Assembly (NCBI GenBank): GCA_010093515.1
Contig: MU001694.1
Coordinates: forward strand, 436,557-500,556
Length of the DNA stretch: 64,000 bases
From: Lineolata rhizophorae
Lineage: Eukaryota > Ascomycota > Dothideomycetes > Lineolatales > Lineolataceae
Direction: 5' to 3'
In this document: piece by piece, positions 18,091 through 57,602 of the stretch
Position numbering within the stretch: position 1 is the first letter of the stretch
Layout of the letters: each line of letters begins with the position of its first letter
Notes under the pieces: model-generated
What the model was told of the DNA's origin: nothing
What the model saw: the letters and a program-made list of their open reading frames with translations, nothing else
The model's database searches: none
Program-made: the position numbers and the translations under genes

Positions 18091-20361
18091 TCAAGGGCTT
18101 TCTTTGCACTCCGGAGTGAAGCTGTAAAGCCTCACGTCACCGTCTTCGCTTCCGGAGACCAACCGACTATCGCTCAAACCTAGGCAAGTCACAGGACCAG
18201 TATGTCCAGTGAACGTTCTGTCGCATCTCCCAGTTTGGGGGTCCCACACCTTGACCATCCGGTCCTCGGCGCCAGACACAAAGCGAAGAGTGTCCCCGGC
18301 AAGGGCCCAGACGCCTTCCAGATGGCCGAAGAAGGTCCGAATGCATCGGCCCCTCGCGACATCCCACAGGCGGATAGTGTTGTCCAAAGAACCGGTCAAC
18401 ATGTATCGCGGGGGCAAGGGCCGGGTCGATATAGTGCCCGGCTCAAAAAAGGGGGCGTAACTCTGGTTCGACGCAAAAAGCAACGCATTGGACACTCCTT
18501 GAGAATTACGTGGGGCATCGTTCCCACTATTTTGTAGGTAGCTAGATGCGCCCGAAGAGTCCGAGACGTTCCCGTCATCCCCAGGAGCGTCGTGGTGTTC
18601 GGCAATATCATGGATTTCAAACTCGTGAGGCAGCGGCAGCACTTGCTGGACTTGCCCGACATGACCTTCAAACACCTTGAGGCATCTTCGAGTATCCAGA
18701 TCCCAAAGTCGGATAGTGCAATCGTCCGAGGCGGAGAAAACGGTTCGGGACGCTGTGTCCACTTTGACAGCGTTTACCCAGTCGGTGTGTCCGCGGAGAA
18801 GAAACGTCGATCTGTCCTGTATGTTCCAGATCCGGATCGATTTATCCATGGAGCCCGAAGCAAGTATGTTGTTTTCGAAATGCAGATTGATGATACCACT
18901 ACTATGGCCCGTGAGAGTGCGGATGCACTCACCGGTTCGCCAATTCCAAATTTTCAACGTGCAATCAAGGCCGCCGCTGATAAGTTGCGCGTCATCAAAC
19001 TGAAGACATCGTATGCCGGATGTATGACCAGTGAGCGTGCGAATCTCCTTCCCGCTCTTCATATCCCAAATTTTGATGGTGGAATCGTAGGATCCCGTAG
19101 CAAGAATGTTGTCATCAAACTGAAGGCACATCACTCCATTAGAATGGCCCCTGAAGACTTTCGTTGTGCACCTTCCGTATTTCCAGTTAGTCCCAATCAT
19201 GAAACGATCTTTGTAGACGTCCTTCCACCTTTTCTTGTTGCAGACTTTCTTCGACACCGGTTCGGCGGAAGCGGTTCCGCTATGTGCTGATCGTTTAGTC
19301 CCGGCCATTGCCGGTTGGTTTGGCGCATCTGCCTCCGCACTTGACTGTCGGGGTTCGTCCGGCCGTGTCGGCTCCGGGACGGGCGTAATGTTCGGAGACC
19401 ATTCATTCAAGCCTCGCCGGGAGGCGCGAATTTGATTCTGGCGCTTTTCTGTCCTCAGGCGCTTCCGTTCCAGAAGCGGCAAGCCCCATCCGCACTTGGT
19501 GCACTTCCTGTCAATGTGTTGTTCGCACATCTTATGCCATACCACGTCATCATCTGCCATCGTCCTCCATCTACGGCTGACTTGTGCCGCCTTACATAAC
19601 GACGTTGTGTCGAGGTACGAAAGAATCTTGAATCCAAGTTCGGGCGGAAGAGCGGAGAGAAAGTCAATTTTGATCAGTTCTCGAACGGACGCAGAAATCA
19701 TGGATAGTTGCGGAAAGCAGCATTGGGCGAGAATCCCCTCCAACATGAGATTTCGATGCTTTGAGGGCGCGGCGGAAAACAAGGACCAGACGTGCGCGAT
19801 GGCTTGTTGGTCAGCCTCGGAGAGGCTATTCAACTCCTGTAATGAGTGTCAGAAATAGATCGCATCCCACGACTGGCCGTCCAATGGCGCTTAAGGGTTC
19901 GCACTATTAGTACGTACACTTTGCAGCTGCTCCATCGAGGGCTCGTTAGCTTGACGGCGACACTTGAGGTCGGGTCGGTGCCGATAGCAATACTTCGAGT
20001 TTGACGAGGCCATCGACGAATTCAGGCTAGACGCGGAACCGAGAGGGTTGTACTGCTGTGGAATGTGTATCGCGAGGAAAGGTGCCACAGCACGTTCGGC
20101 CTGCTTGCTCGATGTCGAGATACTAATGGCGCGATCCTTTTCTTCCTTGCTCGGCCCGTCGTCCTCGCGCTCCTCGTCGTCGTAGTTGCGCCGACTTTTG
20201 CCTCCTCCGTGCTCGTGTTCTCGCAATAGCTGCAGCGTGTCTGCAGACTTCATGGAGGAAGTCGCCGCAAGGTGAGAAGAACGTCTTCGTCGATGTCGGG
20301 GCGCAGCGGCGAGCGTTGCGGACGGCGGCAACTCGTGAGGATGTCGCGACGTTGATGCCAT
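18091..20361 (-). CDS. sconB: Sulfur controller SconB/SCON-2 (Met30-like F-box WD40 protein)
   Basis: Substrate-recognition subunit of an SCF ubiquitin ligase; in Neurospora and Aspergillus the orthologue negatively controls the bZIP activator of sulfur assimilation (CYS3/MetR). Exon 1 (20361-19918) and exon 2 (19836-18091), with an 81-nt intron between MEQLQS and ELNSLSEAD, give 729 aa. The conserved block [16 protein letters not shown] closes exon 1. The F-box [19 protein letters not shown] begins near residue 204, followed by the Cys motif [16 protein letters not shown], and the C-terminal half has seven WD40 repeats (GH...IKIWD, IRLWD and similar). The start at 20361 (AAGATGGC) has good context; an upstream in-frame ATG at 20445 would add 28 residues. 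The N-terminal 100 residues are low complexity (Arg, Ser, acidic). Confidence 0.94.
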
Positions 20362-21290
20362 CTTCGCGCCGGACACGCAATGAGCGGGCGGCCTATATGA
20401 ACGGATTCCGACTGTGTACGCCCTTGGGACGGAAGGCGCTATCATGCAGTTTCGAGCTCGGGCTGGCGATGGCGTGCTAGCGGGCTGGCGAACGACAATT
20501 GTGGCCTGAGCCAAGACCCGGCGGGCACGAGCGAGCTGGTATACCTTAATTAGGGACCACGTCCTCGAAAATGCAACAGATTGGCCTCAAGGATAGAGGC
20601 GCGAGGACGCCCGCAGTAGAAAAGCGACAGAAGACGGAGACCAGCGCAGCTCGCGGCGGGTGCTGGTCCTCAGAGGACGGCATGAGGCATTATGCGGTAG
20701 CGAGACCGCTTAATTGCAAGGTTTGCCGCTGTGGCGGGAGGGGGGATGCTGGTGCACGTGACCCGACATGCCGTGCTCTGCAGGCGAGGTCGCGCCATCA
20801 CCAAAGCGCCTGGCTAACTTGTGGTAGTTAAGTTTGATCAATACCATACATAATTTTCTCCTGATTGTCTCAGTGTAGGTCTGGGCTTGGGGATTTTTAT
20901 GCGGAACTTCAGTCAGCAAGATTATAAAAGCAGTGTCATCGGAAGAAATGAAAAGCTGTTATAGTAGGCCGTCAATTTCCGTGAGCAATCGTGCTATGGA
21001 AGAACGTAGTGAAGATCTGACAGACGTATTCATATCCCTAACATCCTCCGGCTGATGAAAGTCTTGACGAATCGCTGATTATGCGGTCAAAATACCGAAT
21101 CAGACAGCCTTTTCAAAGCCACCTAACAAACGTATACACAAGTGATTCCTTCACATCTCAAGCTTCTCAAACTAATACCAGTTCCTAGTAGGTCAGCAAT
21201 GCAATCAACCTGGTCGAGCGATCCAGCAATGTCCGGTCACATCCAAATATCCTATCCGTTTCACGCGTGAGCGATAGAACTCAGCGCAGT
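20362..21290. other. Intergenic upstream of sconB
   Basis: sconB promoter side, GC-rich at 20570-20800 and AT-rich afterwards, ending at the 3' end of the first DUF6590 gene. No gene is supported. Confidence 0.5.
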
Positions 21291-23393
21291 CTACTGGCGT
21301 ACGTTGTAGTGTGAGCCACCTTCTTGAGTGTCCTCATAATCATCCTCTTCTTCTTCATCCTCTTCGTCTCCTGGTGGCTGGTTAGATTGAATACTCTGTG
21401 CACAACCGCCCTCGGTTTGATATGCTGCAGCTTGGTGCTGGGCGTATAACATCGATTTACTCCGCGAAGCCGTGTACGGATGGTTTCCCCGAGCAAGAGC
21501 AGCAGATTTTTCGTAGCCGTAAGGGGCAAGAGGTTGATTATAACCGCTTTCCGGGCTATCATACCCTGCACTTGATATACGTGGGGTATCCGATCGTTGT
21601 CTTTCATAGTGGCCACGATTGTCGTGTAGGGAAGCGTATGCTGAACCCGACGCCTGCGGAAGATCTGGTAGCTGGTATTCATTGGCACGACCGTTGTCAT
21701 CGTCGTCGTCTTCCTCGTCGCCATCATCGTCACTTGGCTTGTCTACCCAAACATCGAGAAATTGTTGCTTGAGCGCAACCCTTGAATCTTTATGGACTTT
21801 CCCGAAGTCATACACTTTAACGTTATGTTCAAGGGTATAGACTTTACCAAAGTTTATTCGTGAAAGAGGATCCATGGAATAAGATGGATCCCTGGGTTCG
21901 ACCCTAATAGCGTACGGTCGCATCCCCTTTTCGCCTTGGCTTGGTTTTTCGTCTCGAGTAGGAACGGGACATTTTTTGCCGGTATATATGATGGCATGGT
22001 CATTCTTCTTGACAGTTGGTTTGGCGACGCCTTTCCGGCTGTATGTCTGAATTGGCCTAGTACAGCGAACGTTTAGTAACAGGCCAAACGATCTAGAGAA
22101 GTAACTTACAAACACGAACAAGAGTCATTTCCCTCACGGATAACAACAAACCATCTTATCTTGGTTGCGTAGCGCTCTCCAAAGCTATCAGTGATGATAG
22201 TCACTTTTGCGTTTTCGTCTCCAAGTGGCTCTGGCCAGAGGACCTTCAAGACCTAAGAAATTTTAGCACCAAGAGTTTTGAAATGCGCGCCATCGAAAAA
22301 GTGTGAATATCAAGGTAGTAGATCATCTGCTCAATTCACCTTTCCGAACTTGAAGAAGTCACGGCCTGGGTACCGCTTTTCGAACTCTGTTCGGCATTAG
22401 CACCGAGTGTCATTAGTTATTGCGGGCGCTATGGGGTGTACCTGGGTCCAATTTTTCCCGAATTCCTTCTGTGCCGATGAGCTTTCTCTTAGACTTTATT
22501 CCGTGCTTGAGCAGCTCGGGATCGATTTTTCCAGGCTCTCCTCGCTGCATATTAAGTGCGATGTAATTATTGTCCTTTGTGGGAGGGATAAAAATGCCCT
22601 TGACGCTTCCCCGAGGTGGAGGCCTTGGACCACCTGAGCATCAAGTCAGCATGGATGAATTGCGGTATTGCATAGCGTTTGAAAGCCATACCTGGGTGGT
22701 GTCCGTAGGCATTAACATCGGCCACTTCATGACCATATCCCGATGCCGCTGAAGGACCTTCTCCAAGTGTCCAATGAGTCTAGGTTCTTTGAAGCTCTTA
22801 AATGGCATCAACGCATCCTTTCAGTAACAACCAGAAATATAGATAGACTTGTGTGAAGGCTTACTTGCGCCAAATCAAGACCTTATGAAAGTGTACAACT
22901 TACCTGGTGGCCCAACGTGCAGTGTGGAAAATTGGGCTTCAAGACTTCCTTGGTAGGGATATGAAGTGTACCCATGACGAATAAACGGCCGACCACGCTG
23001 ATCGGCCTCTGCAGTGGAAAATCCGGAGGTCGGATCATGTGCCGGGGGCCTGTTTGACAACACAGAACGGTTAGACTTGCCTTGTTCCTACCACAAAGGG
23101 GAAAATACGAACACGTATCTCGGATCTTGCTGCTCCTGCTGCTCCTGCTGTTGCGTCGTTTGGCCTTGAGCGCTATACATACACACACAAAAAAGCGAGG
23201 GGTCTCAGTAATTTATTATTCCGTTTTGGCCATTGGCGAGGAAAGAGAATGTCACGCACAACTGAGCTTGCGGTAGGTTCGAGTCGGGGTACAATTCCCG
23301 CCCGTCTCGAAATACCCAACAGCGCCGAGCATCGTCATAGTAACGATACTCGTTGTAGGAAGCATCCCATATCCAAGGCTTGGCCGGTTCCAT
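21291..23393 (-). CDS. DUF6590 protein A, eight exons (518 aa)
   Basis: Member of a fungal family of unknown function. Exons: 23393-23260, 23172-23113, 23049-22904, 22760-22692, 22633-22442, 22386-22340, 22252-22110, 22056-21291; all phases match. The N-terminus carries the short aromatic motif WIWDASYNEYRYYD followed by WVF, also seen in the two paralogues. A Gln-rich, disordered linker follows. The DUF6590 core starts near residue 201 with LDPEFEKRYPGRDFFKFGKV and LKVLWPEP, continues through SCSCLPIQTY and HAIIYTG, and ends with DPLSRINFGKVYTLEHNVKVYDFG. The C-terminus is a long disordered tail with two acidic runs (Asp/Glu) and many Tyr, Gln and Gly. It is divergent to coiled-coil gene 1 (1.2 kb apart). 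Exon 4's acceptor and exon 1's donor are the least certain. Function is unknown; acidic tail and no signal peptide suggest a nuclear or cytosolic protein (inference). Confidence 0.8.
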
Positions 23394-24612
23394 GATGGGA
23401 AGCCGGCGCCGCTGGGAGCAGCAACGGCATTGGAGTAGGCTGGCGTTGGGTATAACGGCGCGTCCCTAAGGCGTGAAACCTGCTGCATACTTATGTTCCC
23501 CGACGCAGCCGGACGTGGCTCCATAGTCGAGTGCGGCTCTGCGAGGCCCGTGGGCGGCTGGGGACAAAGTCGGTTGGGGCTTACATGATTTACAGTTCAT
23601 CAGCTGCGAGATGCCGCGTCTTGCGTGCGGGGCAGCACGGCTCTAGCCGTAGAGCCACACGATATGGACACTAGCGTGGTTGCCTTCACGGCGCCTGCAG
23701 CGACGAGGCCTTGGCTGCAGCACCCGGGCCGCGGGTGCGATGCTGAGAAGGCTGCCGACCACAGGCACGGATGGGTACTGCTGCTGCGCATCATGTTTGA
23801 GGTGGTCGCACCACCGCTCAGCTTATAACTTCCAGTCATGCCCAGTACTACAGACCAGCCAGTTACTGTAGAGACACCTAGAATCAGGTAATACGGGATC
23901 ATAGTTTTTTTCAGACCAACAGTCTCAAACGACCTAAAACAGCCACATAGCTCCGTGGCCTACATAGTGATCTTCGTATGGAACGGGTTAAAACACATCC
24001 GTTTTTCAAAACATTTAAAACGGGCGTATGCAGACCCCTGTACTGCTCCCTGTTTAAAGCGCCCGGCGTGCGTCGGAAGTAGCCAGATTCTTAGGAAGGT
24101 GCTCCGTACGTAGGTAGTACGTATGCGACATCCCACGCGCCAAGGCTGGTGGCTGCTTTAAGAGAAGGCCGCCCGGGCACGGGCCATGGCCGCATATAAT
24201 CCAACAGGGGAAGCCAGCCGTGCCCCGTTAAAACATTCCTCGCAGAAACGGCCTGGTCAGCGCATACCTATGGCGCCACGCGCCGCACTCCGTTCATCCT
24301 TGCGAGACCCAGACGTCCGTTCTCGTCCTCCCTCTGGAAACCAAACAAGCGATCGACGCGACAAACAAACGAACACCCTCCCGTCACGCACGCGTCGGAC
24401 CAAGGCTCTGTCGTCGGCTAGTGGCGAGCGGAACCACGCGTCGAACCCCGTATTGGATGGAGCCCTCTCCTGAGCATCATCCCATGGACTGTTCTTCCAG
24501 ATTTCCCAAAACGGAGATTCCTCAACCGAGTCCGGACCGACAGTAGCTGGCAAAGCCGTCCAAAGAAGTCGCGCTCACAGCCCTCGATGCTCGGCCGTCT
24601 AACCCAGCTACA
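23394..24612. other. Divergent promoter region of pair 1
   Basis: Lies between the DUF6590 gene A start and the coiled-coil 1 start. Short GC-rich ORFs at 23600-23900 and 24186-24550 overlap on opposite strands and are not supported. Presumed to contain both promoters. Confidence 0.5.
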
Positions 24613-25881
24613 ATGAAAAGCGAACTTGAATCCGCGGCTGTTCAGGAAGGTGACAAGGCCGAGCCAAATGTACTCTTCCGCCAGTACCAAAAATTATGCC
24701 GTCATCGCGCTCAGATTCTGCTGCTGCGCTCTCGGGTTTGCAACCACCGGCAGTTCTGTAAGGACCAGTACGCCATTGCAAATGCCAAGCAGACAACTCT
24801 CATGACAACCGTGGACGATGTACTCAAAGGTGCCGCACGCCTTGACGCCGTCAAGGAACTCCACCGTGAACTCCAGGAGATCAACGCCGGTATTGACAAT
24901 TACACTGACGAACTGATGAAACTCGAATACGGTTTGAGTTCCGATGAGTCTCTTCTCCGAGAAGAGGAACGCTCCTTTTACCGGCAATTAAAGGATCTTG
25001 CGGGTCCGAATGCCCCGTTTGATGTCAACGAAGAAACTGAACACATTCGGCTTCGGGCTGGCCTCTTAGATGAACTGTATTTTGACGAATCGCCAAGTTC
25101 AGACGCACCCAGTGACGAACTGCCAGCCCAGCTCAGAGACTATTATGACACAGTAGCTGCTGCCAGAAGGTCCCTGGACAATCTGGACGAACTGGAATCT
25201 GATTACAGCCACGCCAAGGCCACTTTAGAGGTGCAACGTCGGGAAGGGCGGCAAATGGACTCTGATGCCATCGACCTACTTCGCAGTTATCCGCAAAATC
25301 GAGCGGATATTGTGAAGCAAATTGGAGATTTTCAGGACGCCATCCGTGAAAAGCGTGATATCTGCTTAGAGGCAGCTATTGAGGCCAAGACATCTGACAA
25401 TTTCGAGGCTCACTTGGCGTCTCGGTACGAGTCTCTCAAAGCCACTGGTGGAGCTGGCGGTCCTTCAGAATCAAGAGATCAACTCGTCGTCACCCTTGAA
25501 GACCCAACTAGCGACCCTTTCGAACTTCTACTAGCTAGAATACCTGATCTGCATGACCGTGTGAACGAATGGATCTCCGAAGCGGAACCAACTTCTTCAG
25601 CTAGCTCCCCAGTGCGCCAGGAGCCGGAATTTAGTGATGCATTGAATTTGTCTCCTATCATCTCGCAGGACCTGGCATCATCCTTTCATTCTGGCCGTAG
25701 CATCGAAGCGTGTCACACAGAGCGCACATCCAACGAGTCAACAAATACTCTCCAGCGAGCAAGATTGAAGCAGTTCAGAGTTTTAAAGCCAGCAAGGCGG
25801 CGCTCCGAACCCATCATTCGAAAGGCATTTTCCGGTGGATCAGCCTTATTATCTCCGCAGAGCACGGGGTTGTCTTGGTAA
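24613..25881 (+). CDS. Coiled-coil protein 1 (partner of DUF6590 A)
   Basis: Intronless, 422 aa, unnamed family. The first 140 residues are predicted helical coiled coil (heptad-like Leu/Ile spacing in LHRELQEINAGIDNYTDELM). After an acidic, Ser-rich break comes a second helical block beginning LPAQLRDYYDTVAAARRSLD. The C-terminus is basic and Ser-rich, with ARRRSEPIIRK. The gene-2 product shares the layout, the L..YYD start of the second block and the RR-x-S-acid-P motif, so these are paralogues. No signal peptide or membrane helix. It is divergent to DUF6590 A. The start at 24613 is the first ATG and gives a compact N-terminus. Function is unknown; a structural or scaffold role is inference. 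Confidence 0.8.
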   Translation: MKSELESAAVQEGDKAEPNVLFRQYQKLCRHRAQILLLRSRVCNHRQFCKDQYAIANAKQTTLMTTVDDVLKGAARLDAVKELHRELQEINAGIDNYTDELMKLEYGLSSDESLLREEERSFYRQLKDLAGPNAPFDVNEETEHIRLRAGLLDELYFDESPSSDAPSDELPAQLRDYYDTVAAARRSLDNLDELESDYSHAKATLEVQRREGRQMDSDAIDLLRSYPQNRADIVKQIGDFQDAIREKRDICLEAAIEAKTSDNFEAHLASRYESLKATGGAGGPSESRDQLVVTLEDPTSDPFELLLARIPDLHDRVNEWISEAEPTSSASSPVRQEPEFSDALNLSPIISQDLASSFHSGRSIEACHTERTSNESTNTLQRARLKQFRVLKPARRRSEPIIRKAFSGGSALLSPQSTGLSW

Positions 25882-27242
25882 TTTGTTGCGCGAATCGCCA
25901 GTCATAACCGTTGTTTAGAAGTCGTCAGGCTGCAGCCATGTTCCTAACGCTGGTTGACTCCTAGACGTCGTAGCTTCATGGCCCAGTAAGTACCAAAGTG
26001 GATGATTTTAATGAAGCTTCTATTGTCTTACAACATCTAGATTCTCATTGATGCGCCTTATTTCATGGAAAGTGCTCGCGAAGGAGTCTTGGGTTTTGCT
26101 ACGGTATACCCATTTAGCTCGTTTCTAATGCTGCAGTCGTGCGTTTTCCTTTCAAAGAACAGATTATCTCTTGTTCGATTTAAGCACCTATTGTGAAAGT
26201 ATGATGTTCCTTATGTGGGCGTCGCTAGGCTATGGGTTTCAATTTGTTCTTAGTCCCATTCTCCAATTTGTGTTAGTATCTATTTATTGAGTTTCCGAAA
26301 TCTTTAGGGAGAATAGTGATGTAACTCTAGTGCTAGATTGAAAAATGGATACTTTCTCGATTTAACCCACTTATGAACGGTTGATGACCTTTCTAAGGCT
26401 ATTTCACATGAGCATGCAGTGGTCAGCATGAACTTCAAAATCCCAAATTGAAAACGCTTTTTTTCACAGCAAGGTCCACAGGTCGCTATACACAGGCACC
26501 CCCATCAAATTCCTAAGCTAGACATCTTCTAGCAGAAAATAGGGAACAGATGGCATCAAAGTTCGTAGGAGGTCAAACAATACTTATGCTCTTCGCATGC
26601 AGTGGAAATGGGGGAAATAATACCCTCTCCCTGCAAATGAATTTCTTTTTGTTTATGGTCTATCGCAACCAATATCTACAGGTGGAAAGCCAGCACACAC
26701 AATGGTTACAAGAACAAACAAAAGGTAGAGGTTCAAAAAAAATCTAGAGCGTTTAGCTTGCGAGTTATAACTAAGTTTGTGGTACATGAAAACAGTCATT
26801 CAGCCTTGTCAAGTCTTATTTGTGCTTGGGATGGAAAAAGAGGTTAGAACAGTGGTTATTAGGAAAAAGCCTTTGAATATGGCCTGACCTTGAGGATGGT
26901 CGTTCATTTTCAATGTTTTTTGATTTCAGTATGTTTCAAATAGAATCTGAATATCAAGACAGCACTCTCGGACAAAAAATAACAAAAATGATGTCGTAAC
27001 GTCGTATCATGTAGCTGCAGATGTACAAAGCTTGAAACAGCTCTGGAGAGCATTTTGAGGTAAGTGGTAAGCAGTAAGAGTAAGGCGTATATAAGGGCGC
27101 ATAATATCGCGCCTTTTGCAAAACAAAATGATTCAAGGAACTAGTGGCGCCCGCACAGCAACCAAATATGAGCGTCTTTCTGGTGTTTCCGGTAATTTAA
27201 ACCGATCGACGAAGACGAAAACCCCACCAGTTCCGTGCCTTA
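25882..27242. other. Intergenic between pair 1 and pair 2 (convergent 3' flanks)
   Basis: AT-rich, 1.36 kb, with T- and A-rich tracts and no convincing ORF. It separates coiled-coil 1 from DUF6590 B. Confidence 0.5.
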
Positions 27243-28995
27243 TTATTCTTCTTCGTCCTCATCTTCAGCCTCCCTTTCAACGTCGCCTGTCGTCTGACCG
27301 GAAGGACTAGAGACATAGGGTTGTTTGGAAGATGTTGCTTCGGCGCCCAGGGTAAATAGACGGGCTGAACTTGGCCCGCTTTCCCACACACTTCGGAACT
27401 GCTGCACAAGAAGCCAAATGTCATCCTTATGAACGTCGCCAAAATCATACACCTTAACATTGTGCTCCACGGTATAGATTTTGTTGAAATTGACACGCGA
27501 GAGGCTGTCCATTTTCTGATTGGGATTTCTTTGCCTGACCCTGATTGGTTGTAACATCCCCTTCTCGCCTTTTGCTGGAGCTTCAATGTCTAGCGGTTTC
27601 GGCGGCCTTTTGCCCGTATAGATTATCGCATGGTGGCATTTTACGATAGTATCTTTGCCGACACCTTGGCGTCTGTAAGTTTGTATTGGCCTGGATAACT
27701 TCGTCAGTTCGTCCGAAAGACTTCGTAGCCATGACATTGTGAGCACGCACAAACAGGAGCAGCAGTCGTGACCTTCACGGACTACAACAAACCATCGGAT
27801 TTTAACTGCAATATTCTCCCCGAAACGGGGCTCTGTTGCAATGGTCATATTCTCCGTAGACGTGCCCGGTAACTCCGGCCACAAGATCTTAAAGACCTGG
27901 TTAGAGTGTCTGTAAGCACTCGATCGTCAAGGTTGGCTAAGCGGCCCCTCTGCTTTTTCTACCTGAAGATCACAACGAAACGTTTGCAGCTTAGGACGTG
28001 CTTAAGGAGAATTGGAGAGGTTAAATTACGCCTTACCTTCCCAACTCCAAAAAACTGGTACCCAGGTTTCTTCACTTCATAACCTGTAGAACGTTAAATT
28101 TTGCTAATACGTAGGTTCTCTTCCGGTAATAAACTCACCAGGGTCCAACTTTTCCCTATCACCAGGAGTGCCGCGGAGCCTGGTAGATGACTCAAAGCCC
28201 TCAACGAGTAACTTGGAATTTATGGACGCGGGCTCCCCAATCAATTTGCGTACGGTTACGTCCTTGTAGTCGGCGTACACTTCGTTTGCCCCAAGCCCGG
28301 GGGCACTCTCAATTCCTGCTCGTTCCACGGGGTTTTGGAGGTATGTAGGAGATTCATAATTACGCTGACTATCTTGAGCAACCGCAACCGCCAAGGATGA
28401 CGTGGCGTTACCAGGAGCATACGGGTAAGCGGATGGCGACACTAAAATGCAGCATCCTCGATTAGCAGAGCAATTTCCTAGCGACGGGTGAAAAACAAAC
28501 AGAGAGCTTGAGCACAAAATTCGCCTACATATAGCATGAGATTGGGAGAAGTCATGGTGCAACGGAGAACTATCGTTGGTATGCTGCGTCGAACGGGTTT
28601 TATTCCAATTTCAATACAGAACGAAAATGACGCTAAGTACGTACCGCCTGGGTCTAACGAAAGATTGGACAATCCATATGACAGTTCGTTGTGACTGCTT
28701 GAGCTGGCTGCCCGGCCCTGTCTACCTTGATAGTAGCTAGCGTTTGTTGTCGGAGCGCGTGGAACATCAGGCTGTTGCGTTTGGTGCCTGTTGAGACATT
28801 AGCAATGGGGCTTCGCGGACTTCTGCAGAGCGTAGTTGACGGTCGGACGTACGGGTTAGTGTCGTAAGGCGTGGCCGGAGTATGCCACTGAGGATTCGAC
28901 GCATGCTCGCTCTGGTAGACCCATCGGGAGTTGACGCGGTCAAAGAACCTGTATTCGTTGCGTTCCGGACCCCATACCCAATGTGAAGCGCTCAT
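27243..28995 (-). CDS. DUF6590 protein B, six exons (409 aa)
   Basis: Paralogue of protein A. Exons: 28995-28853, 28787-28645, 28441-28139, 28083-28037, 27896-27751, 27690-27243; the phases close without gaps. The N-terminus MSASHWVWGPERNEYRFFD followed by RWVYQ is the same aromatic motif as in A. The DUF6590 core starts near residue 197 (LDPGYEVKKPGYQFFGVGKV, FKILWPELPG) and contains CCSCLPIQTY, HAIIYTG and SLSRVNFNKIYTVEHNVKVYDFG. The C-terminus ends in an acidic run (Asp/Glu). The linker is shorter than in A. Introns before the LPIQTY segment and around the 47-nt FF..GKV exon are in the same places and phases as in A. Divergent to coiled-coil gene 2. Function is unknown. Confidence 0.83.
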
Positions 28996-30391
28996 GCTGC
29001 GAGCCTTTAAGAAGCATCCTCGTGGCGCCCCGTCTGACCCGCTGGCTTGTACGGTGGTCTTTTTATCAAGAAACTGGGAAGCGGGGACGCGCAAAAGACG
29101 CTGGACGCAGCCTCATGCCGTCAAGGCGGCCGAGGTCGATAGGACGGGCGACGAATCAGCTTTGACAACGCTATTTTGAGCCCAGATGACCGGGCACAAG
29201 CGACAAATGAACTGGCAACAGTGGGGGGTTGGTGCCACCAATGACCGGGGCATGTGGGAGAGAGGTCAGCTCGCATCCATTTGTCCATGGCGCCCTCCCG
29301 CGGGATGTCTAGCGGCTTGCTGCATGGATCAGTGAGCCCTCACGCTCCGTTTGGCGGGAGCACCCTCTGTTCGCTCGAAGGAACAAACGCCAGTAGCCTT
29401 TGGGGTGGGGGGAGGGGGAGATGGAGCACGAGTGTACGAGTGCAAGTAATATCCTATCCTACCCCAGCCGGAACGAAGTAGAAAGTGTCGGAATGGGGCT
29501 GTTTCATATTGGTTGATTTTAGTGTATATAGTATGGTTTACGTACGCAATCTCGCGTATCGTGGTGAAACCCAACTTCCGCTCGCTTCGTAGCATAACCA
29601 ATCAACATACCATTTTTCAACAGAAAGCCTGCTACTATCTTGTAGGGCTCAAGTGCCTGCTAGCGGGCACCACAAACGCGGCGCGCGCTACTGTGGAATA
29701 TAAGTGGAGTTTGTTCTATTAGGCTCTATGGCCACTGGACATGCGGCATCCGATCTGGCCCAAAAGCCACAGGCGCGCATGTTCTGTAGCATTGTCTTCT
29801 TGGGTGATCGGACGAGATATTCTCTGCACAGTAAAAATGCGCGCCAGTTAATCTCTCGGTAAGTCACTAGCGACAGGGGCGCAAACTTGGGAGTGCATCT
29901 CAGCGCGGAAGAACATTGTTGCAGCGCCCTCCGCCATGCGAGCCCAGACGTACAGTATGAACTAATCGCGCGCTCCTATGCTCAGCACCAATTTTTTTTC
30001 TTTTCTATGATGTCAAAGCAGCCCAAGTTTGCTCCCGTGCTTGCGCCCGCTCGGAACCCCCAGCGTTCAGCCTTCGCGTCCGCAATCGCATAGCGTGAGG
30101 CCGAGCCCACCTCGGTCAACTTCGTCCTGTCATCCCGCTTGCACAACACACCTCACCACCGCCGTCAAGCTCCACGGCCCTCTGTGACTGCTTCGAACAT
30201 GGTGCTTGCCTACTCCCTGCTGCTGCTGCCGCCCGGCAAGCGTATCCTGTAAGCTGTTGCAGTAACTGCGAAAAGGACATTACTAACATGAAATGATCAC
30301 CTAGGTGATCCAGCTTATCGCGTCGTTCGTGTGCTTAGCTTCCCACCCGAAAACCCCTCCTTCTACGACTGATTACGCTTATGATGTTTCC
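28996..30391. other. Divergent promoter region of pair 2, with a probable 5'UTR intron
   Basis: Contains the DUF6590 B promoter side and the coiled-coil 2 leader. A good intron is visible at 30249-30304 (GTAAGC donor, ACTAAC branch site, TAG end). It lies upstream of the coding ATG, and joining its flanks runs into stops, so it is most likely a leader intron. A G-rich tract is at 29400-29425. Confidence 0.5.
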
Positions 30392-31612
30392 ATGCACCGA
30401 CCATCTCCACCAGGGTCACTGCTATACGCAATGAGCATAGCAATGGAGTACGGTGGCACCCCGGACGTACTAGGTCTCGTCGCCTGCAGGGCGAACATCC
30501 TCTCACGCCGAGACACGGTATTGAAGGAACGGCTTCGTCTGATGCAGCAGCGGGATCATTATGAACGACAACGCGATGCTTTCGAGACTGTGCAGGAGAA
30601 GCTGATGAGTGTGCTGGACATTGCGGAGCACGGGGCCAACAATGATGCCGTCTCAAACCTCCATCGAAGGTTGCTGGAAGAAAGCGCCGAATTGACTATC
30701 CAAAGCGACAACCTGAAGGGAATTGAAAAGGACTTGGGCAAGTCTGAGTTCGACCTAGGGCAAGCTGAACAGGATCTCTTTGTCTATCTTGATCAACACT
30801 TTGGCCCTACCTCGGTCTTTGCGGCCAACGACCACCTCCAAGGCACAACTTTCAACGGCGAAATTGCCCGTCCCCTACCGTCCAACACGTCAAGCGATTC
30901 GAGTGGCAGGCCTAAGTTATTGTCAAGGTACTACGACAAGGCTGGAGACGTCGAGGTCATTATCGATCGGCTTCGCGATTTGGACTTTGAATACGAGCAA
31001 GACCAGGACGCACGTAGCCGAAAGCGCAACCGGGAAGAGCCAGTGTTCCCCGCAGAGCCTGAATTTCTCAGACGTTATTATCGCGAACGCAACAAGCTGA
31101 TGGACGATCTCGCGAAAGCGAAACGTGATGCCCTGCGCCTGAGAGAGGACTGTGTGCGCCTGGACCTGCTGCCAGAAGGAGAGGAGCCTCGCGAATTTGA
31201 CGATAATCAGATACGTGTCGCATCCAGTCTGCTGGATCCGGACTTGTTCCCACTTTCGGGATACGCGAACTCGGAGGACCTAACTAGACGATGGGTCATT
31301 GACGTGCTCAAAAAAGCCCAATTTTCGTCCTTCGCTGGCGTGGAGAGCGATCCTGGAACGAACGAGGTATCCAAGCAGACGCATCCCCTACCTAGTGGGC
31401 GGGATTCTTGGGTTTCACTCTCTGATATGGACGGATCGATTCGAAGATCAGAGTCTCGCTCACCCAGGACGCCAAGTACCAACATGTTCTCGCACAGATG
31501 GGAAGGCGAAGCCATCCACCGAAGATATTCCGACCCAAACATTTTCTCACCAAATTTAGCGGAGTTGACGGGCTCGCCTATCTCAAAAGCGCTTACATCC
31601 TTTCCAACCTAG
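30392..31612 (+). CDS. Coiled-coil protein 2 (partner of DUF6590 B)
   Basis: About 406 aa, one coding exon. Helical block 1 contains VLKERLRLMQQRDHYERQRD and LHRRLLEESAELTIQSDNLK. Helical block 2 begins LLSRYYDKAGDVEVIIDRLR, aligned with LRDYYD of protein 1. The C-terminal tail has IHRRYSDPNIF, matching RRRSEP in protein 1. It is acidic overall, with no signal peptide. The ATG at 30392 is the first in frame; alternatives are 30431 and 30443. A short upstream ORF (ATG at 30199, 17 codons) ends within a few bases whether or not the leader intron is removed. Function is unknown. Confidence 0.78.
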   Translation: MHRPSPPGSLLYAMSIAMEYGGTPDVLGLVACRANILSRRDTVLKERLRLMQQRDHYERQRDAFETVQEKLMSVLDIAEHGANNDAVSNLHRRLLEESAELTIQSDNLKGIEKDLGKSEFDLGQAEQDLFVYLDQHFGPTSVFAANDHLQGTTFNGEIARPLPSNTSSDSSGRPKLLSRYYDKAGDVEVIIDRLRDLDFEYEQDQDARSRKRNREEPVFPAEPEFLRRYYRERNKLMDDLAKAKRDALRLREDCVRLDLLPEGEEPREFDDNQIRVASSLLDPDLFPLSGYANSEDLTRRWVIDVLKKAQFSSFAGVESDPGTNEVSKQTHPLPSGRDSWVSLSDMDGSIRRSESRSPRTPSTNMFSHRWEGEAIHRRYSDPNIFSPNLAELTGSPISKALTSFPT

Positions 31613-32553
31613 GCCAATCCCTAGCTCATCCTCGTAGGTGTATTTGTCTACAAGAAGGAACCAAGATGCCAGTGTCTTTGGTTCTGTTCTTGTATATGGG
31701 TATTTGGTGCACAGACACCTTACTTCTCCTTGCTCTCACCTGTTTCGCTCCATGTGCTAGAGTAATGATGTATTGAAAAATCTTCGCGGTCCAACATTCC
31801 ACTTTCAACGGGCTTAAAATAACCCCAGGCCCTTACCCTAGCCTAAATCTCGATTGCTCAATCGCACTAATATTTGAGTGCGATCTGATATTGTAAGGTT
31901 GGACGGGGACCCTGCTCTTTCAGTATCCTTTATAGACAGGAGGACACTGTTGTTGTGGTTGAATAAAGACCATGTTATCAATTCGCATTGGATTTTGCCA
32001 TGTGCCAAGTGTCATCGAAACTGGATGGCTTATTTACCCTACAGTCTATAAATTTGGGTGGCTGTTGTTGGTAAGTGCCTCTGCGTGAACAAATCTTATC
32101 TAAGAGCTATTCATTAAAGCTCTGACAAATGCCTAGATAATACCGTGCCTTCAAAATCACGTGTGGCTATATGTCGCTGCACGTGTAGGTCAGATTCTTT
32201 TTCTTTTCTTGATTACTATTTAGGATGGTTCACGATTCAAAGGCTCTGCTCCAAGTGTTCTGTTTATGTTGCTTTTGGTGCTGTCATGACTGCCAATCCG
32301 CGGATTTAGCGAATTTCGGGAAGATCTCCCTTACGAAGGCGTATTTGGCCCTAGCATTACAACACAGGTGAATCCAGTTCGTCAAAAAGCGTGAAACACG
32401 TTAATTTAATGTGACTGTTACGTATCTATGTGCTCATTATTGCAGCCTCAGAGCTGACCAGACAACACATCGTATAAGCGTTCTCCGAATCGGAGAACAG
32501 GAGACGTATGGGACGCATAATTCCGAAATTGCTACCATCGCGTATGTCCAAAT
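31613..32553. other. Intergenic between pair 2 and pair 3
   Basis: AT-rich convergent 3' flanks of coiled-coil 2 and DUF6590 C. No gene is supported. Confidence 0.5.
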
Positions 32554-33736
32554 TTAATCGAATCCCAAAGCACTTCGGAAATAAGAATGTAGTAAGTGGT
32601 GATGTTCCTCGGCAACAACGCCGATTCCGATCACCTTGACGTTGTGTTCAACCTTCGCTCCAGATGTCAGCCTTGACCTACGCGAGGATTATTCACGCGA
32701 AAATAGGTGCGCTCACAGTGTAAGCTTTGGCAAAGTTGATCCTGCTCATAGGATCAAGGGCGAACTCTTCTGGGTCGACATTTCTACCTAGTTCAACCCG
32801 AATAGGTCTCTTCGTAAACTCCCCTTCGTTGGAGAGTGATGTTGGGGGTGTTGTGGTCGGATCGCCACTGAAAATAACGGCATGATCGGCTACTTTAACT
32901 CCCGGTTTGGAGCAGCCTTGGCCACCATATGTTGCAATTGGACTAGGACCGTCAGATGGAACACCCAACAACTGTCGACGTTCATTTAAAGGGCATGTTG
33001 AGCGCTCTCACAGGCAGATGCAGTGTGCATCGTTGGGACTAACGACCACGAATCTGCGAAGTTTAGAATGAACTGGCTCGCCCATGTGATTGGTCGTGAT
33101 CGAGCTTTGACTCGCATCCTCCGCGTTGCCGCCCGCCGGCTCAGACCAGAGCATCACAAAAACACGACCAAACTTGAAGAAGCGCCTTGTAGGATTAGCT
33201 CGTACGCGTCGGAAGCCTGTAAGGTAGTCATAAGCCATTGCTGGATCTGCAGCTTCCAGGGTTCTACCCACGATGATCAAGGAACTCTTCATCCCTTGAC
33301 TCGTCTCTAGTCCCAATTCGTCTATAGCCACGGTTCCCGGGATTCTGATTGTCCGGAGAGCTGACGCTTTGAGCAGAGGGAAGGTATGGATGAGGTGCAC
33401 GTGACAGCCTCCTTGATGAAGCACACGTTCTCGCGTTGTAGGCCAGAGGCGCAGGGTCAAAGCCGGGCGAGGGGGAGGAAAATGCGCCGTGACTGGTAGG
33501 AGTTCTTGGTTCTTGGGTCGCGTGCGTGTCCTGGGCGGACTGACCTTGCGTAACCCTGTAACGGTTGGCGGTATCAGAAGGCGATTATGGTTATGAAACT
33601 GGATTGCAGACGAGTCTCACTGTGGAGAACATTGTGGAGGAGCCCAGTCAATCGTGGCATTGCCCTCGGAGTCCGCGACGATACGGTACGATCTCTGGCA
33701 ACCGGAGTCCCATATCCATCCGCCGGGATTCGTCAT
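32554..33736 (-). CDS. DUF6590 protein C, five exons (309 aa)
   Basis: Third and shortest paralogue. Exons: 33736-33621, 33555-33272, 33216-33012, 32942-32717, 32652-32554; the phases close and no stop interrupts. The N-terminus MTNPGGWIWDSGCQRSYRI keeps the W-x-W-D...YR motif. The core starts with LDHRFRRVRANPTRRFFKFG and RVFVMLWSEPAGG, contains CICLPIATYGGQG and HAVIFSG, and ends DPMSRINFAKAYTVEHNVKV. An intron splits YT from VEHNVKV, which is not the case in A and B. The protein stops about 25 residues later and has no acidic tail. The intron before LPIATY is in the same place and phase as in A and B. It is divergent to coiled-coil 3, only 456 bp away. Confidence 0.78.
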
Positions 33737-34192
33737 TGTGAAAATGGAGTGCTGGACCCACCGGGTCTAAGACTCCATGGTGCGCAAGGTTTGGCACCCG
33801 CGGGCCAGCAGGACGATTATATAGAGGCAGAGCGAGCGGCCTGCTACTGGAGGGGCGCAGAGCCGCAAAACCCGCCTAATGGACGCGGACCCAGCAGGGT
33901 TAGACGGGCTGAAATGCATGCATTGCAGCGCGGCCGGCGGGGTCGGGCGGCCGAGGGCCGCGCCAACCCCGGGCGGACCCGGGCCGGCGCGGGCTTATCG
34001 ACGCGCTACTGCCGCTACCCGCGCCCAGCGCGGTGGCGTGCGTCGGGCGCTTGGAGTGCTTAAAGCGGCGCATGCCGGCCTCGTTGCCGCGGCACACAGT
34101 TGTGTTCGCAGAGCCTCATCTTGCCCTCTTCTCGCCATGTTGTCCGCTTCACCTTGCCGCCGTCACTCCCGAAGTCCCACCACGGCGAGCGT
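33737..34192. promoter_or_regulatory. Short divergent promoter of pair 3
   Basis: The 456 bp between two opposite start codons must hold both promoters. TATATAA is read on the minus strand at 33824-33818, about 80 bp upstream of DUF6590 C. The half nearer coiled-coil 3 (33850-34070) is strongly GC-rich. Co-regulation of the pair is inference. Confidence 0.5.
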
Positions 34193-35518
34193 ATGACTTT
34201 CGACCAAGACACAAGTCCTAGACCTAGACCGACCAGAAGCCCCAGGTCGACGGCAAGTCCAGTGAGTTGCCAGCCGTTGTCTCCTTTCCGTCGTCAAAGA
34301 GTCCGGAACACGTCTGACCGGAGCGCGTCAAAGGATGGCGACAACATTGAAGACTACGTCGACATCTCCTTCGATGCGCCAAAGCCCTGCCTCGAGCCGT
34401 GGCGGCTTGCGTCTTTGAAGGAAGCCGCCAACACGCCACTTCGGTCCGGCCGCGGCTTCGTTATTCCTAGCATTTTCACCGAGGAGCTTCGGAACGTTAT
34501 CTCGGCCCAACGAGACGTCACGAGCCTGCGGGTCCGGGTGCAGGATGAACGCCTAGCACTTCAGCGAAAGAGGAAGAATGTCGCGGATCATGATCGTCTC
34601 TTCATGGATGAACTTCGAAGGCAATGGATCGATGGCGCCGGCCCAAACCTCGACTCTCTGGAGACGCTCTATAGCCAGAGCGCGGAAGCCCGCGATCGTA
34701 TTGGCCCGGCGGAGACGGATTACGACGACCTAGAAATGAGACTGGGACACTTAGAATTTAAGCTTGCTAAGGATACGGAGAACCTCTGGGCCAAAGTGGA
34801 ACGTGGACCCGAGAATGCTGATGATGCAAACCCGTATAGAGGATCAGAGGAGTCGTCGATAGCATTTGAAACCAATTCGGATGACGAAATGGAGCATGAC
34901 TTGGGAGAGAGTCTCCAGGATGGGCACGAGGACTGCCCTAAACCCCTATTCCCTGAGTCACCGGAATGTGTAAAGGCCGAATCTGGCGCATCTTTCAAAG
35001 CCTACGATCAAAAGCTAAATATACACACTCAGAACGAAGCAATTGTGCCGGATGAAGTGTCGCTGGATGCGCTTAGTTCTATGACCCGTAATAGCGCTTG
35101 TGCTTTTTTGGCCAGCTGGAGCGAAGGCGATGCAGACCACCTTCTTAGCTTGGAAGAACGAATCCAAAAATTTTTCGCTGACGAAGCCTCCACCATCGCG
35201 CCATTTAGTCTGGAAGTTGATCAACTTCTCAGCAAAAGTACTAGGCCACAAGTCTCGGGCTATCTCCATGGTCCATCATCTCGAGACTCGGCCAGTAGAG
35301 TCAACGAATGGATTCGAGACAACCTACGCAATTCGAGAATGGAGAGGCTTCGACTTCGGCTCGCCGCAATTCACGCCGGGGAGAAGCTGTTGAGACGTGC
35401 GACACGCTCGGACGATGTTTTGTGTTCTCATTCAAGAGCCATGCTTTCGAATACTGTTCAGGCTACCCGGAGGCCCAGAACGAAGTCTGTACACGTACAA
35501 CGGCCCCATGCTGAATGA
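34193..35518 (+). CDS. Coiled-coil protein 3 (partner of DUF6590 C)
   Basis: Single exon, 441 aa. A basic, Pro/Ser-rich N-terminus (about 45 residues) precedes a helical block with ISAQRDVTSLRVRVQDERLA and SQSAEARDRIGPAETDYDDL. An acidic middle segment follows, then a second helical block and a basic tail (RRPRTKSVHVQ). Organisation matches proteins 1 and 2, but sequence similarity is low, and the YYD and RR-x-S-acid-P motifs are not conserved. Homology is supported mostly by position, length and layout. The ATG at 34193 is the first in frame. Function is unknown. Confidence 0.72.
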   Translation: MTFDQDTSPRPRPTRSPRSTASPVSCQPLSPFRRQRVRNTSDRSASKDGDNIEDYVDISFDAPKPCLEPWRLASLKEAANTPLRSGRGFVIPSIFTEELRNVISAQRDVTSLRVRVQDERLALQRKRKNVADHDRLFMDELRRQWIDGAGPNLDSLETLYSQSAEARDRIGPAETDYDDLEMRLGHLEFKLAKDTENLWAKVERGPENADDANPYRGSEESSIAFETNSDDEMEHDLGESLQDGHEDCPKPLFPESPECVKAESGASFKAYDQKLNIHTQNEAIVPDEVSLDALSSMTRNSACAFLASWSEGDADHLLSLEERIQKFFADEASTIAPFSLEVDQLLSKSTRPQVSGYLHGPSSRDSASRVNEWIRDNLRNSRMERLRLRLAAIHAGEKLLRRATRSDDVLCSHSRAMLSNTVQATRRPRTKSVHVQRPHAE

Positions 35519-37131
35519 TGCCCTATGTAGCGAGTAGCTCTAGCACGTACAAAGACTGGCTAAGAGCTCGATTGAATGCCGGCTAGATAATAGTACAGAG
35601 TGCATTTGAAAATCGTTCCAAATATGGGTAATAACACACCGTTATGGAGAAGATGGTAGAGTAGCAAAATCAATAATAATCCTTATCTTGACCCGGTGAG
35701 GTCAACTTACCATCACTAAAGCAGCGGATTAGAAAACCCCCGCACCTTTTGCCCCGTGCCACGATTACTCGCTGGAAGTGCCGTATCTCATGAATCACCC
35801 GCTAGGGCTTGGTCATTGGACGCCCTCACAGCCACCTCGCCCCTATTGTTGCAGCAAGCCACAAATCCTCAAATACGGCCTTGCATTGCGTGAGATAGAC
35901 TAAGGCGCTTATCGGTAGATATATAACATACAGGTCCTAGTACCAACAAAGACATAGGCAAAAGTAAAAGCACATGCGGATAGTGTATTCACCTCGGAAC
36001 TGCGAAGCAATGTCAGATAAACAGAAACTGTTGGACGTTGCCAATGGGGACACCTCGTATGAGTGGTGTAGGTAAGGCGATTGCTTGCTGCAAGAGGTGA
36101 CCATTCAAGACCAAACCGAGCGTATAGTGTGGTGGTCAAGACATGTGGGGGAGAGGGGGAGAGGGGGAGGGCGTGGCCTATAAAACATGCATGCAAGAAG
36201 GCAACTGACTTGTCGCCTGCATATGGATGAAGGCAACTCCGCCATCAAGGCATCCTCCAATAGCGTGCAGCCATCCCGCACCATCTCAGGCCAAGGTACC
36301 GCCTCGTCGGGACGCCCGTATCGATTTTAAGCCTCAGTGACTGACTGGCACCCCTTGAGTGGCTAATGTCCATCTGATCTGTCCCCAGCTCTTGGCAAGC
36401 CTGATTCTGAACAGTTGCGCTATCAGACCCCAGACGACAGGTCTTAAGGGTGAGTCACATAAGGCTTTCACGCCGCTTTTGCAAATAAAACCTCACTTGT
36501 GATTCAGGGCCACACAGCCTGCTCTTAGCTGTGACTGGCTCATCGCTTGTCGGACTCATGATCCTGATGGATATCGCTCAGCAATACGTAGTTGCGCTAT
36601 GTTGCAGCGGCAGGCCAACTGCTTTTCGAAATAGAGTAAAGCCGTGGCGGTGAGGGACAGCGATGTGAATAGGCTCAACATCAAGCTTCGGCCTAGATCG
36701 AGAGCGTTCTGTTACTTTGCACACCACTGAGGAAAGAAGCCTATGGCGGGGTAAGGCTACTACCGGGATTCGCAAGTCGGACCATGCGGGAAAATTGAAG
36801 GCGAATCGCAAGTAGCAGTTCGAGAATAGTATCCGCTCACCGAGTTTTGCCTATTCCAGACTTGAAGCTTTGCACCCGTCACTGAAACAGTACTTGTTTC
36901 AGATGCCTACCTAGTATAGCTACATACATGGATTCTTCAAGGTAACATTACTAGTTTACGCCCCGGAAAACGGATGACTAATGTGTAAAAAGAACCCTTA
37001 TTCCGCCACCAAAACAGGACACAACAATACAGTACATGACCAGAACATGCTTAACGCGATACCCGAAAGGCCAAACCCGCCCGTATACTCCAACTCACAA
37101 TGCAAAAACCAACCAAAAAGGCCCACCAAAT
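35519..37131. other. Intergenic, 1.6 kb
   Basis: Holds a (GGGGA)-like G/A-rich tract at 36144-36175. A possible short start at 36223 continues for only about 30 codons. No gene is supported. Confidence 0.5.
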
Positions 37132-39553
37132 TCACGCAGTACGACCGTCGCAGTCCGGAATTTTAACACCATCCTTCAGATTCCTGTTAACATCCATCAA
37201 GCCCCACTTGTCTTCCCACTCTTTCCCATCCTCATTAAACTGGATCTTCCATGGCTCGTCAAAAGCTTCAAACCTATGAATTATGTTAGCAAAATGAATG
37301 CCTCGCGCAAGACCTCTTAGGCACGCCGATTAAAGCTCACCAGAAATATGCGGTTCCATTCGTTAAGCTCTGGCAAACCCAATGCTCCATGAACGTGTTC
37401 ATCTCGTCGATGCCGGCAACGCTTCCTTCGGTACACGACGAGGCGCTGCCGCAGCTCTTGCCGCCAGCACTCGGCCAGCCAACTTCGCTGATGTAGTTCT
37501 TCTTGTTCGTCCCCTCCGTAAGAACGACGTCTTTCGTGGTCCAGAAGTTCCACGTCCACGCGGCCGCCTCGTCGGCCGTGACGCCGGCAAAGAAGGGGTG
37601 AATGTTGGCCATGACGATGTCAACCTCCGACGCCAGCTGCTGAGTCCAGTTGTCGCCGAGATCGGAAGTGGCAAGTGGAAGATCCAAGTCCCGCTCGGTG
37701 AGGTTTGACTTCACGTCGGCCAGGACCTCGGCGAGTTCCGTGGAGGTGAGGTCTTCGCGGAAGAGAACCTCATTGCCGATGATGACGCCGGCAAAGGGGT
37801 CCGCGCCGTGGTCATCCAGCAGGGAATACATTTGGTGTAGCTGGCGATCGTTGGTCGTGTCGTTCGGACCGAGCCAGACACCAAGCCACACTTTGACATC
37901 AGTCAGTTCGAGGCGGTCAATGGCGTGAAGCACCATCTCGGTCTGGTTGCAATCGGTGCCGTACAGGCGAATCTCCTTGGTGAGCTGGGAAAGCACGGCG
38001 ACATCTCGGGTCACGTTGTTCTGGCTCGGCTTCGTGTTGATGCAGTCCGGATACTGGGCGTTGAGCGGCGTGTAGTCGATGCCGGGGAAGACCCTGTGCA
38101 GATCGTCGTTGTTCATCAGATCTTGTATCTCGTCAGAATCGACGGAAAGGTCGCCTCTGCCGTCGTCCTCTTCAGCGCTCTCCGATGAAGAGGATGAGCT
38201 GCCACCGTTTGCATCTCGACTGCTGAGGACGCCCCCAATCACACCGCCCACGATAGCCGCGACGACAATAACGACTATGATGGTCCCGACAATCCAAGTC
38301 ATCTTTCTATTGCCACGCTTCTGCTTGGCGAGCCAGGTGCTCTTCTCGCCAGTGGGACCGTCGCTGCCACTGCCGCCCGGAACCGCGCTGTACTGGCCAC
38401 TGGAATCTCGGTTGCCAAAGGAAGAGAAAGCTCCGGCGGTCCCTGCGGCGCCAGCACCGGCGCCAACGACTGCGGCGCCGGCACCTGCAGCCAGGCCGTC
38501 GCGGCTGTGATTCTTTCTCCCCAAACTTAGGACCGATCTCCGCTGCGAACCTCGTTGCGTGATGCCGTCGTCGCCATCGTCCTCGATGTCCCGAGGGTCG
38601 AAGACGGCCATATCCGGGCCCAAGGCGTTCTGCGAAGTCGAGTACTGGTTGTAGGGGCTGTCGGCGTAGAACTGGTTCTCCCGGTGAAACCGTTCCGGGG
38701 AACCGTGATGGTCGAGAGGCATTCCCCTCTCTGGCGAGAAGCCGGCCAGCGCTGCGGCGCCTGGAGATGCCGCTGCCGTGGCAAGTGGGGCGGTAGAGGC
38801 GAAGGAATCTTGCGATGGAATGGGGTAAGGCGCTGCCGCAGCACTCGTTTGTTCGTAACCGGCAGGAACATCCAGACTGCTGCCCAAACCCCTCTCCTGC
38901 GGGCCTAGGCGCGCACCACTCAATCCCCCGCCCTCGCTCCTCCCCCAGTTGTTGATATCTTGGAGCGCCTGCAACCCGCTCTCACGCTCGTTGTTCGCAG
39001 CCACGCCCAGGGCGATGCCGGCAATGCCACCGCCGGCGGCCCTCTCGCCCAGATTGTCGCTCCCGGGCGTGGTGAAGGACTCTCTTCGAGCCGAGACGGG
39101 GGAGTTGTGGTCGTACCCGACCTCGCGGCCCCATATCCTGCCGTCGGGATCCTCGTGTCCGGCCGGAAGGTCTGATCTCCTCCCCGTTGTTCCATGGCCG
39201 TACGAACCCGCGGGAGGCTGCGAGTAGCCGGCCATTGGAGGGGGCGAGACGGGCTTTCGCGAGATGGAAGGCCGGGCGTACTGCTGGTGTTGGCCTGAAT
39301 ATGAAGCGGCAGGTGGAGGCAGGACGTCGTGTTGCCGTTTGGCTTGGAGCTGGCTGAATGCGCTGGAGGGATGCATTCCTGGGTGCACTCGGTGCACTGG
39401 CGGCGGAGGCGGCGGAGGGCCGTCGTCTTGGGGCGGAGAACGCGACATCATGGGGTGTTGCTGCTGGGGCATTCCGAGGCCCGGCTGAGGCACGGACGAT
39501 CGAAGGGGGCCCTCGTCGTCATCCTCGAAGGAATAGCGATTGTGGGAGGCCAT
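37132..39553 (-). CDS. btgC: GH17 endo-1,3-beta-glucanase/transglycosidase, type II membrane protein (BtgC-like)
   Basis: Cell-wall beta-1,3-glucan-active enzyme anchored in the plasma membrane. Exon 1 (39553-37341) and exon 2 (37273-37132) give about 784 aa; splicing restores [14 protein letters not shown], the conserved end of the GH17 barrel. The cytoplasmic N-terminal 400 residues are Pro-, Gly-, Ala- and Gln-rich and low complexity. A single membrane helix [20 protein letters not shown] starts at residue 418, followed by a Ser/Asp-rich stalk and the catalytic domain. The proton donor is Glu595 in IGNEVLF and the nucleophile Glu690 in SEVGWPSAG. Several NxT/NxS sites fit a secreted domain. 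The orientation (short signal-anchor, long cytosolic head) matches Aspergillus BtgC; the exact symbol is by similarity. Confidence 0.92.
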
Positions 39554-50048: not shown

Positions 50049-50061
50049 TACCTTAACAGGT
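50049..50061. repeat. 5' target-site duplication of the LINE
   Basis: TACCTTAACAGGT, identical to 55696-55708; the flanking bases on both sides differ, so the repeat is exactly 13 bp. Confidence 0.85.
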
Positions 50062-50164
50062 AGCTGGTTGGCACGACGCTCCTAAGTGCAGACGGTGCGA
50101 AGAATATACCTACCTACCTACCTCGTGTACAAGTGGTGAGAACTTAATTAGGAGAGAAGGCCCG

Positions 50165-57001: not shown

Positions 57002-57602
57002 GGAGGCTTAGGCGCGCTTAAAGGACTTGCACGCCCGAAGTACGTCTCCCTTCCTCGAGCGTATGCGGGAAGTCTAGCGAAGTTGGGCTTCTTGTCTAGC
57101 GCGGAGGAGAAACTCCCTCCCCCCGCCCCCCCCTCCTTTTTTTCTGCTTTAGTCTGTTTTTGGCTTTATAGATTCGGTACGGACGTCTGTGCGGAGAACC
57201 CTCTCTTTATAGGCTAACCCTGCTTATAAGGATCATGGAGATGTACCCTATCACTGATCGCTACGGTAGATTGGAGTTAGAGCGCCTACGTTACTGTATT
57301 AGCTCTGCGTCTCGTACCTAGGTAGTATGTAAGTCGTCGAGACGGACTGCACAAGAATCAATTAGCGCCCATCCATCCGCTGCTAGCTATGAATCCTTTC
57401 GCCAAGCGCCGCCTTCGTCGGCGTCGCTCTCCGTACCCCGCTCCTCGGTGATTAAAGCTCACGTTACAACAGTCCGCACAACTGGACATTCATGGTCATT
57501 CTTCGGGTCTAAGGTCTGTCCTTAATGCCACTATAGGAATATGACTTGGCTGTGAACTAATAAATAAATAGTAGCCTGACGCCCAGCTAACTGAAATTCG
57601 CA
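57002..57602. other. Intergenic upstream of the HET gene
   Basis: C-rich and T-rich runs at 57115-57145. An AT-rich segment (AATAAATAAATAG near 57561) lies about 35 bp before the HET ATG and may serve the promoter. Confidence 0.45.

Follow-up and report, generated by a model that had tools for sequence, protein, structure and literature searches.

The terminal 64 kb of a 500556-base contig (MU001694.1) from the 31 Mb genome of the ascomycete Lineolata rhizophorae, hereafter the window, contain three tandem units at positions 21291-25881, 27243-31612 and 32554-35518. In each of them, a minus-strand gene of the DUF6590 family (DUF1, DUF2 and DUF3) lies head to head with a plus-strand gene for a putative coiled-coil (CC) protein (CC1, CC2 and CC3). 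A preliminary description of this DNA had reported three modules in the same orientation, and its outer coordinates proved to be exact. It had also described the CC genes as intronless with products of 406-441 aa, which is what their uninterrupted frames encode (Table 1).

The DUF6590 gene models were built by manual splicing on GT/AG sites. All three spliced frames start with ATG, are free of internal stops, end at the lower coordinate of each unit and carry the complete domain; full frames had been anticipated by the same description. The least certain junctions, namely those of introns 2 and 3 in DUF1 and of intron 2 in DUF2 (28644-28442), fall outside the DUF6590 domain. When searched as whole spliced products against PF20233, DUF1, DUF2 and DUF3 were found to be members of the family with scores of 162.1, 156.3 and 173.8 bits (curated cut-off 27 bits), matching positions 1-150, 2-150 and 1-150 of its 152. 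A phase-2 intron between C and LPI is common to the three genes, and so is a phase-1 intron directly before the domain, for which the donor in DUF3 was picked to keep the frame. A phase-0 intron between GK and V is present in DUF1 and DUF2 only, while an intron between YT and VEHN is found in DUF3 only. Domain identity amounts to 59% between DUF1 and DUF2, 43% between DUF1 and DUF3 and 41% between DUF2 and DUF3. Outside the domain, DUF1 ends in an acidic, low-complexity tail, and its 44 N-terminal residues (WIWD...NEYRYYD) match only themselves and DUF2 (E 0.005) in the genome.

Table 1. Positions of the genes and features discussed in the text (window coordinates unless a locus is named; exons are listed in the order of transcription).
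Feature	Position	Strand	Remarks
DUF1, DUF6590 gene, 8 exons, 518 aa	21291..23393	-	manual splice model; PF20233 E 1.3e-47
DUF1 exons	23393-23260, 23172-23113, 23049-22904, 22760-22692, 22633-22442, 22386-22340, 22252-22110, 22056-21291	-	
DUF1 DUF6590 domain	21750..22386	-	exons 6, 7 and part of 8
Unit 1 intergenic region, 1219 bp	23394..24612	.	head to head
CC1, uninterrupted putative coiled-coil gene, 422 aa	24613..25881	+	
CC1 predicted helical segment	24667..25005	+	aa 19-131, proline-free
CC1 C-terminal motif RRRSEP	25795..25812	+	CC2 counterpart at same place: RRYSDP
DUF2, DUF6590 gene, 6 exons, 409 aa	27243..28995	-	manual splice model; PF20233 E 7.7e-46
DUF2 exons	28995-28853, 28787-28645, 28441-28139, 28083-28037, 27896-27751, 27690-27243	-	
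DUF2 DUF6590 domain	27387..28083	-	exons 4, 5 and part of 6
Unit 2 intergenic region, 1396 bp	28996..30391	.	head to head
CC2, uninterrupted putative coiled-coil gene, 406 aa	30392..31612	+	
CC2 predicted helical segment	30464..30805	+	aa 25-138, proline-free
CC2 C-terminal motif RRYSDP	31520..31537	+	
DUF3, DUF6590 gene, 5 exons, 309 aa	32554..33736	-	manual splice model; PF20233 E 3.2e-51; without acidic tail
DUF3 exons	33736-33621, 33555-33272, 33216-33012, 32942-32717, 32652-32554	-	
DUF3 DUF6590 domain	32557..33216	-	exons 3-5
Unit 3 intergenic region, 456 bp	33737..34192	.	head to head
CC3, uninterrupted putative coiled-coil gene, 441 aa	34193..35518	+	probable distant homologue of CC1 and CC2
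CC3 predicted helical segment	34469..34807	+	aa 93-205, same register as in CC1 and CC2
Fourth DUF6590 gene, divergent, single frame	L008, 4820-5572	-	PF20233 search
SMC-hinge protein frame, 940 aa	14239-17058	-	
Non-LTR retrotransposon	50057-55361	+	ORF1-like frame (no Pfam match) and ORF2
HET-domain gene	57591-59861	+	67 HET matches genome-wide, this one included

In the CC proteins, a hydrophobic period of 3.48-3.58 residues was the strongest in four of six hand-chosen segments (shuffle p 0.001-0.03), with at least one such segment per protein. For CC1 and CC2 a coiled coil seems likely; for CC3 the prediction is softer. CC1 and CC2 each have a single RxxSxP, in matching positions, and this pattern was found neither in CC3 nor in the three DUF6590 proteins; the RRRSEP of CC1 resembles a 14-3-3 binding site. 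Peak 19-residue mean hydropathy in the six proteins is 1.08, so that a transmembrane helix is unlikely in any of them. Just upstream of CC2, at 30249-30304, the series GTAAGC...CTAAC...CTAG resembles a 5'-leader intron; the CC2 coding frame itself is uninterrupted.

CC1 and CC2 are, on sequence comparison, clear homologues. The shared motifs claimed for them in the preliminary description were borne out by BLASTP (E 5e-10), and their Smith-Waterman score of 145 lies above the maxima of 87, 95 and 83 reached in three sets of 1000 shuffles each (whole sequence, blocks of 40, heptad-preserving). The position of CC3 is less firm. CC1 and CC3 are not significantly similar when compared directly (E 0.23; a score of 41 reached by 685-722 of 1000 shuffles), hhalign gives CC3 a probability of 2% (E 0.024, in the same register), and genome searches that used the CC proteins as queries (E up to 10) left CC3 unconnected to CC1 and CC2. 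It could therefore be argued that CC3 is unrelated, in which case unit 3 would be a DUF6590 duplicate facing an unrelated helical gene by chance and only two copies of the pair would exist. This is very improbable. CC2 and CC3 match at E 0.001 with a score of 76, which exceeds 1000 of 1000 shuffles in all three sets and also every one of 83 background frames, whose scores reach at most 63 against CC2 and 62 against CC3. Moreover, in the profile comparison that the preliminary description had proposed, a hidden Markov model (HMM) of CC1 and CC2 placed CC3 first of 755 sequences (E 0.0016, runner-up 0.67). This set comprised 451 frames of at least 150 aa from the window and 21 loci, antisense included, along with 300 heptad-preserving shuffles, three reversed sequences and CC3. 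With the HMMER composition correction switched off, CC3 was found at E 0.00042 and the runner-up was the SMC-hinge frame of the window at 0.011. The same model aligns a second collinear patch of CC3, RVNEW, which is not significant individually. CC3 is thus supported, at a weaker level, as a probable distant paralogue of CC1 and CC2.

The duplications are old. Synonymous distance was undefined, that is saturated, in nine of nine comparisons (three each for the DUF6590 domain, the part of the DUF6590 proteins before the domain, and the CC proteins), and at E up to 0.01 the DNA of positions 20000-37300 retains similarity between units in no more than three short blocks, each of them shared by DUF1 and DUF2; both observations point to this age. 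No signs of recent diversification were found. Between units 1 and 2, the nonsynonymous distance (dN) is 1.08 for the CC proteins vs 0.36 for the DUF6590 domain. A dN of 0.71 was obtained for the part of the DUF6590 proteins before the domain, so the fast change is not special to the CC proteins. Units 1 and 2 appear as the closest, with DUF6590 domain identities in agreement with the local and profile scores of the CC proteins. As judged from these comparisons, the pair has been duplicated repeatedly as a unit. This part of the preliminary description holds. Its further suggestion of products that work together is reasonable, but three retained units provide modest evidence for it, and tandem segmental duplication copies neighbours whether they interact or not.

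Searching the whole genome with PF20233 returned seven matched pieces, which fall into four genes: the three minus-strand genes of the window and a further one on a different contig; none of 14 control genomes gave a match. Thus, three of the four detected DUF6590 genes adjoin a CC gene. The fourth, at locus L008, lies among an asparaginase-like gene, an alpha/beta hydrolase and a frame to which no family was assigned. When the CC proteins were searched one by one against the genome (E up to 10), CC1 and CC2 found each other, CC3 found only itself and nothing else was recovered.

The best reading is tentatively that of an intracellular two-protein complex existing in three versions. An ancestral head-to-head pair of a DUF6590 gene and a CC gene would have been duplicated twice in tandem, long ago, with both partners retained in all three units. 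Within each unit, the DUF6590 protein and the divergent CC protein beside it, perhaps co-expressed, would form a soluble complex. An N-terminal helical stretch of about 110 residues would let the CC protein self-associate and serve as a rapidly evolving scaffold, while the DUF6590 domain would be the conserved module for binding. In units 1 and 2, the conserved RRxS[D/E]P near the C-terminus of the CC protein may be a phosphorylation-dependent docking point. The three units would then represent three insulated versions of one machine. Support comes from the fact that three of three units have kept both genes, their order and their orientation despite synonymous saturation throughout, as well as from the intron positions common among the DUF6590 genes. 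Also counted in favour are the agreement of both families in placing units 1 and 2 closest, the CC gene next to three of the four detected DUF6590 genes, the lack of further CC genes within reach of the genome searches, the hydrophobic period of the CC segments and the matching RxxSxP of CC1 and CC2.

Several observations weigh against such a complex. Tandem duplication alone yields the same pattern. Plain segmental duplication is nearly as likely; the two genes would then owe their proximity to history, would have been copied jointly as adjacent genes and would function separately. An array of this kind is the expected outcome of repeated unequal crossing-over of a two-gene segment. Two of the three intergenic regions exceed 1.2 kb, and the number of k-mers (lengths 7-11) common to all three does not leave the range seen in 200 first-order Markov resamplings, so that no shared motif goes beyond chance; regions 1 and 3 have five 11-mers in common, which equals the maximum of the resamplings. 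In the 9.9 kb read around the fourth DUF6590 gene (1611 bases left out), none of 10 frames of at least 120 aa scored above 46 with any CC protein, and the coupling can therefore not be claimed for DUF6590 proteins at large. The structure model of the fourth DUF6590 protein, built on six aligned rows, reached a mean pLDDT of 37.8 and was not usable. On the side of the CC proteins, helical periodicity is not significant in the N-terminal segment of CC2 (p 0.054) nor in the C-terminal segment of CC3 (p 0.20), and a home-made heptad score ranked CC2 4th, CC1 7th and CC3 16th among 86 frames, which is why the coiled-coil call is firmer for the first two. CC3 is without RRxSxP. In addition, the order of relatedness in this family rests on local and profile scores, global identities being near equal (24.6, 22.6 and 24.0%). 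What speaks against plain duplication is that both genes survive in every unit through synonymous saturation and that the genome yielded no further CC gene, within the reach of a search that was too weak to connect CC3 with CC1 or CC2 and would miss equally distant members.

The preliminary description had also suggested that the locus diversifies like a recognition or conflict locus. In fungal two-gene cell-death clusters, such as het-S/nwd2 and gasdermin/protease, adjacent genes are kept as a unit according to PMC10197012 and PMC12881547, and fungal allorecognition systems often consist of two tightly linked genes (PMC10197012). By analogy, the CC protein would be the variable partner and the DUF6590 protein a sensor or controller in allorecognition or defence, which would fit with the CC proteins changing faster than the DUF6590 domain. 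Nevertheless, this is unlikely. The likeness to het-S/nwd2 and gasdermin/protease is that of a two-gene layout only. Among the six complete proteins, Pfam searches at E up to 10 identified no known effector or receptor domain and none of the HeLo, gasdermin, NLR, HET or protease domains of cell death and allorecognition, and a membrane helix is unlikely. Comparison with PADLOC models gave weak coiled-coil matches of CC1 only, to JetC (E 0.02) and LeoBC (E 0.096), neither of which was retained. Divergence is saturated, the part of the DUF6590 proteins before the domain is fast as well, and a HET gene at a distance of 22 kb is not telling in a 31 Mb genome that has 67 HET matches. The suggestion thus received no positive support. 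Concerning another known arrangement, fungal divergent gene pairs with a bidirectional promoter resemble the present units in their head-to-head layout (PMC7012866); here, in contrast, the pair itself is triplicated and its intergenic regions share no motif beyond chance.

A wider proposal would be that DUF6590 and CC proteins constitute a two-protein system of filamentous fungi that is so far undescribed and is kept head to head, in which a conserved module is combined with a fast-changing helical partner and tandem copies acquire separate specificities. We regard this extension as a long shot. The pairing itself is of interest since Pfam gives no function for DUF6590, and functions are often reached soonest through a partner gene. 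Should the pairing recur across fungi, it would offer a testable two-protein system together with a first handle on the CC family; should it not, the locus would be an old tandem duplication and nothing more.

The Pfam entry for DUF6590 states no function, and no paper was found in the literature searched for DUF6590 and PF20233. Among solved structures, DUF6590 gave only a weak match to a cell-adhesion molecule (E 0.73), and one of the three domains weakly matched PHROG 7840, of function not assigned (E 0.0052). PGC7_Stella matched the N-terminal part of DUF2 weakly (E 0.0058, 17.1 bits, below the cut-off of 32.3). The DUF6590 sequence may also be reminiscent of the SH3-like barrel of PemK/MazF proteins; this likeness carries no weight in the argument. 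In parallel, neither Pfam nor NCBIfam matched CC1, CC2 or CC3 above cut-off. TPR_MLP1_2 for CC1 was weak (E 0.054), and the solved structures returned lamin (E 0.024), taken as a generic coiled coil, and a weak match to NucC (E 0.7). Pattern scans of bacterial/archaeal and viral collections with DUF6590 and the CC proteins together matched 99, 44, 96 and 73 stretches, none of which was confirmed as a relative of either family.

Elsewhere in the window, the non-LTR retrotransposon carries an ORF2 that encodes an endonuclease, a reverse transcriptase and an RNase H. This ORF2 has 26 matches in the genome, among them five that span the entire query and are 99-100% identical to it; four of the five are free of stops. 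Such near-identical full-length copies indicate that the retrotransposon moved recently. One copy, on C19, is located 1.6 kb from the contig end.

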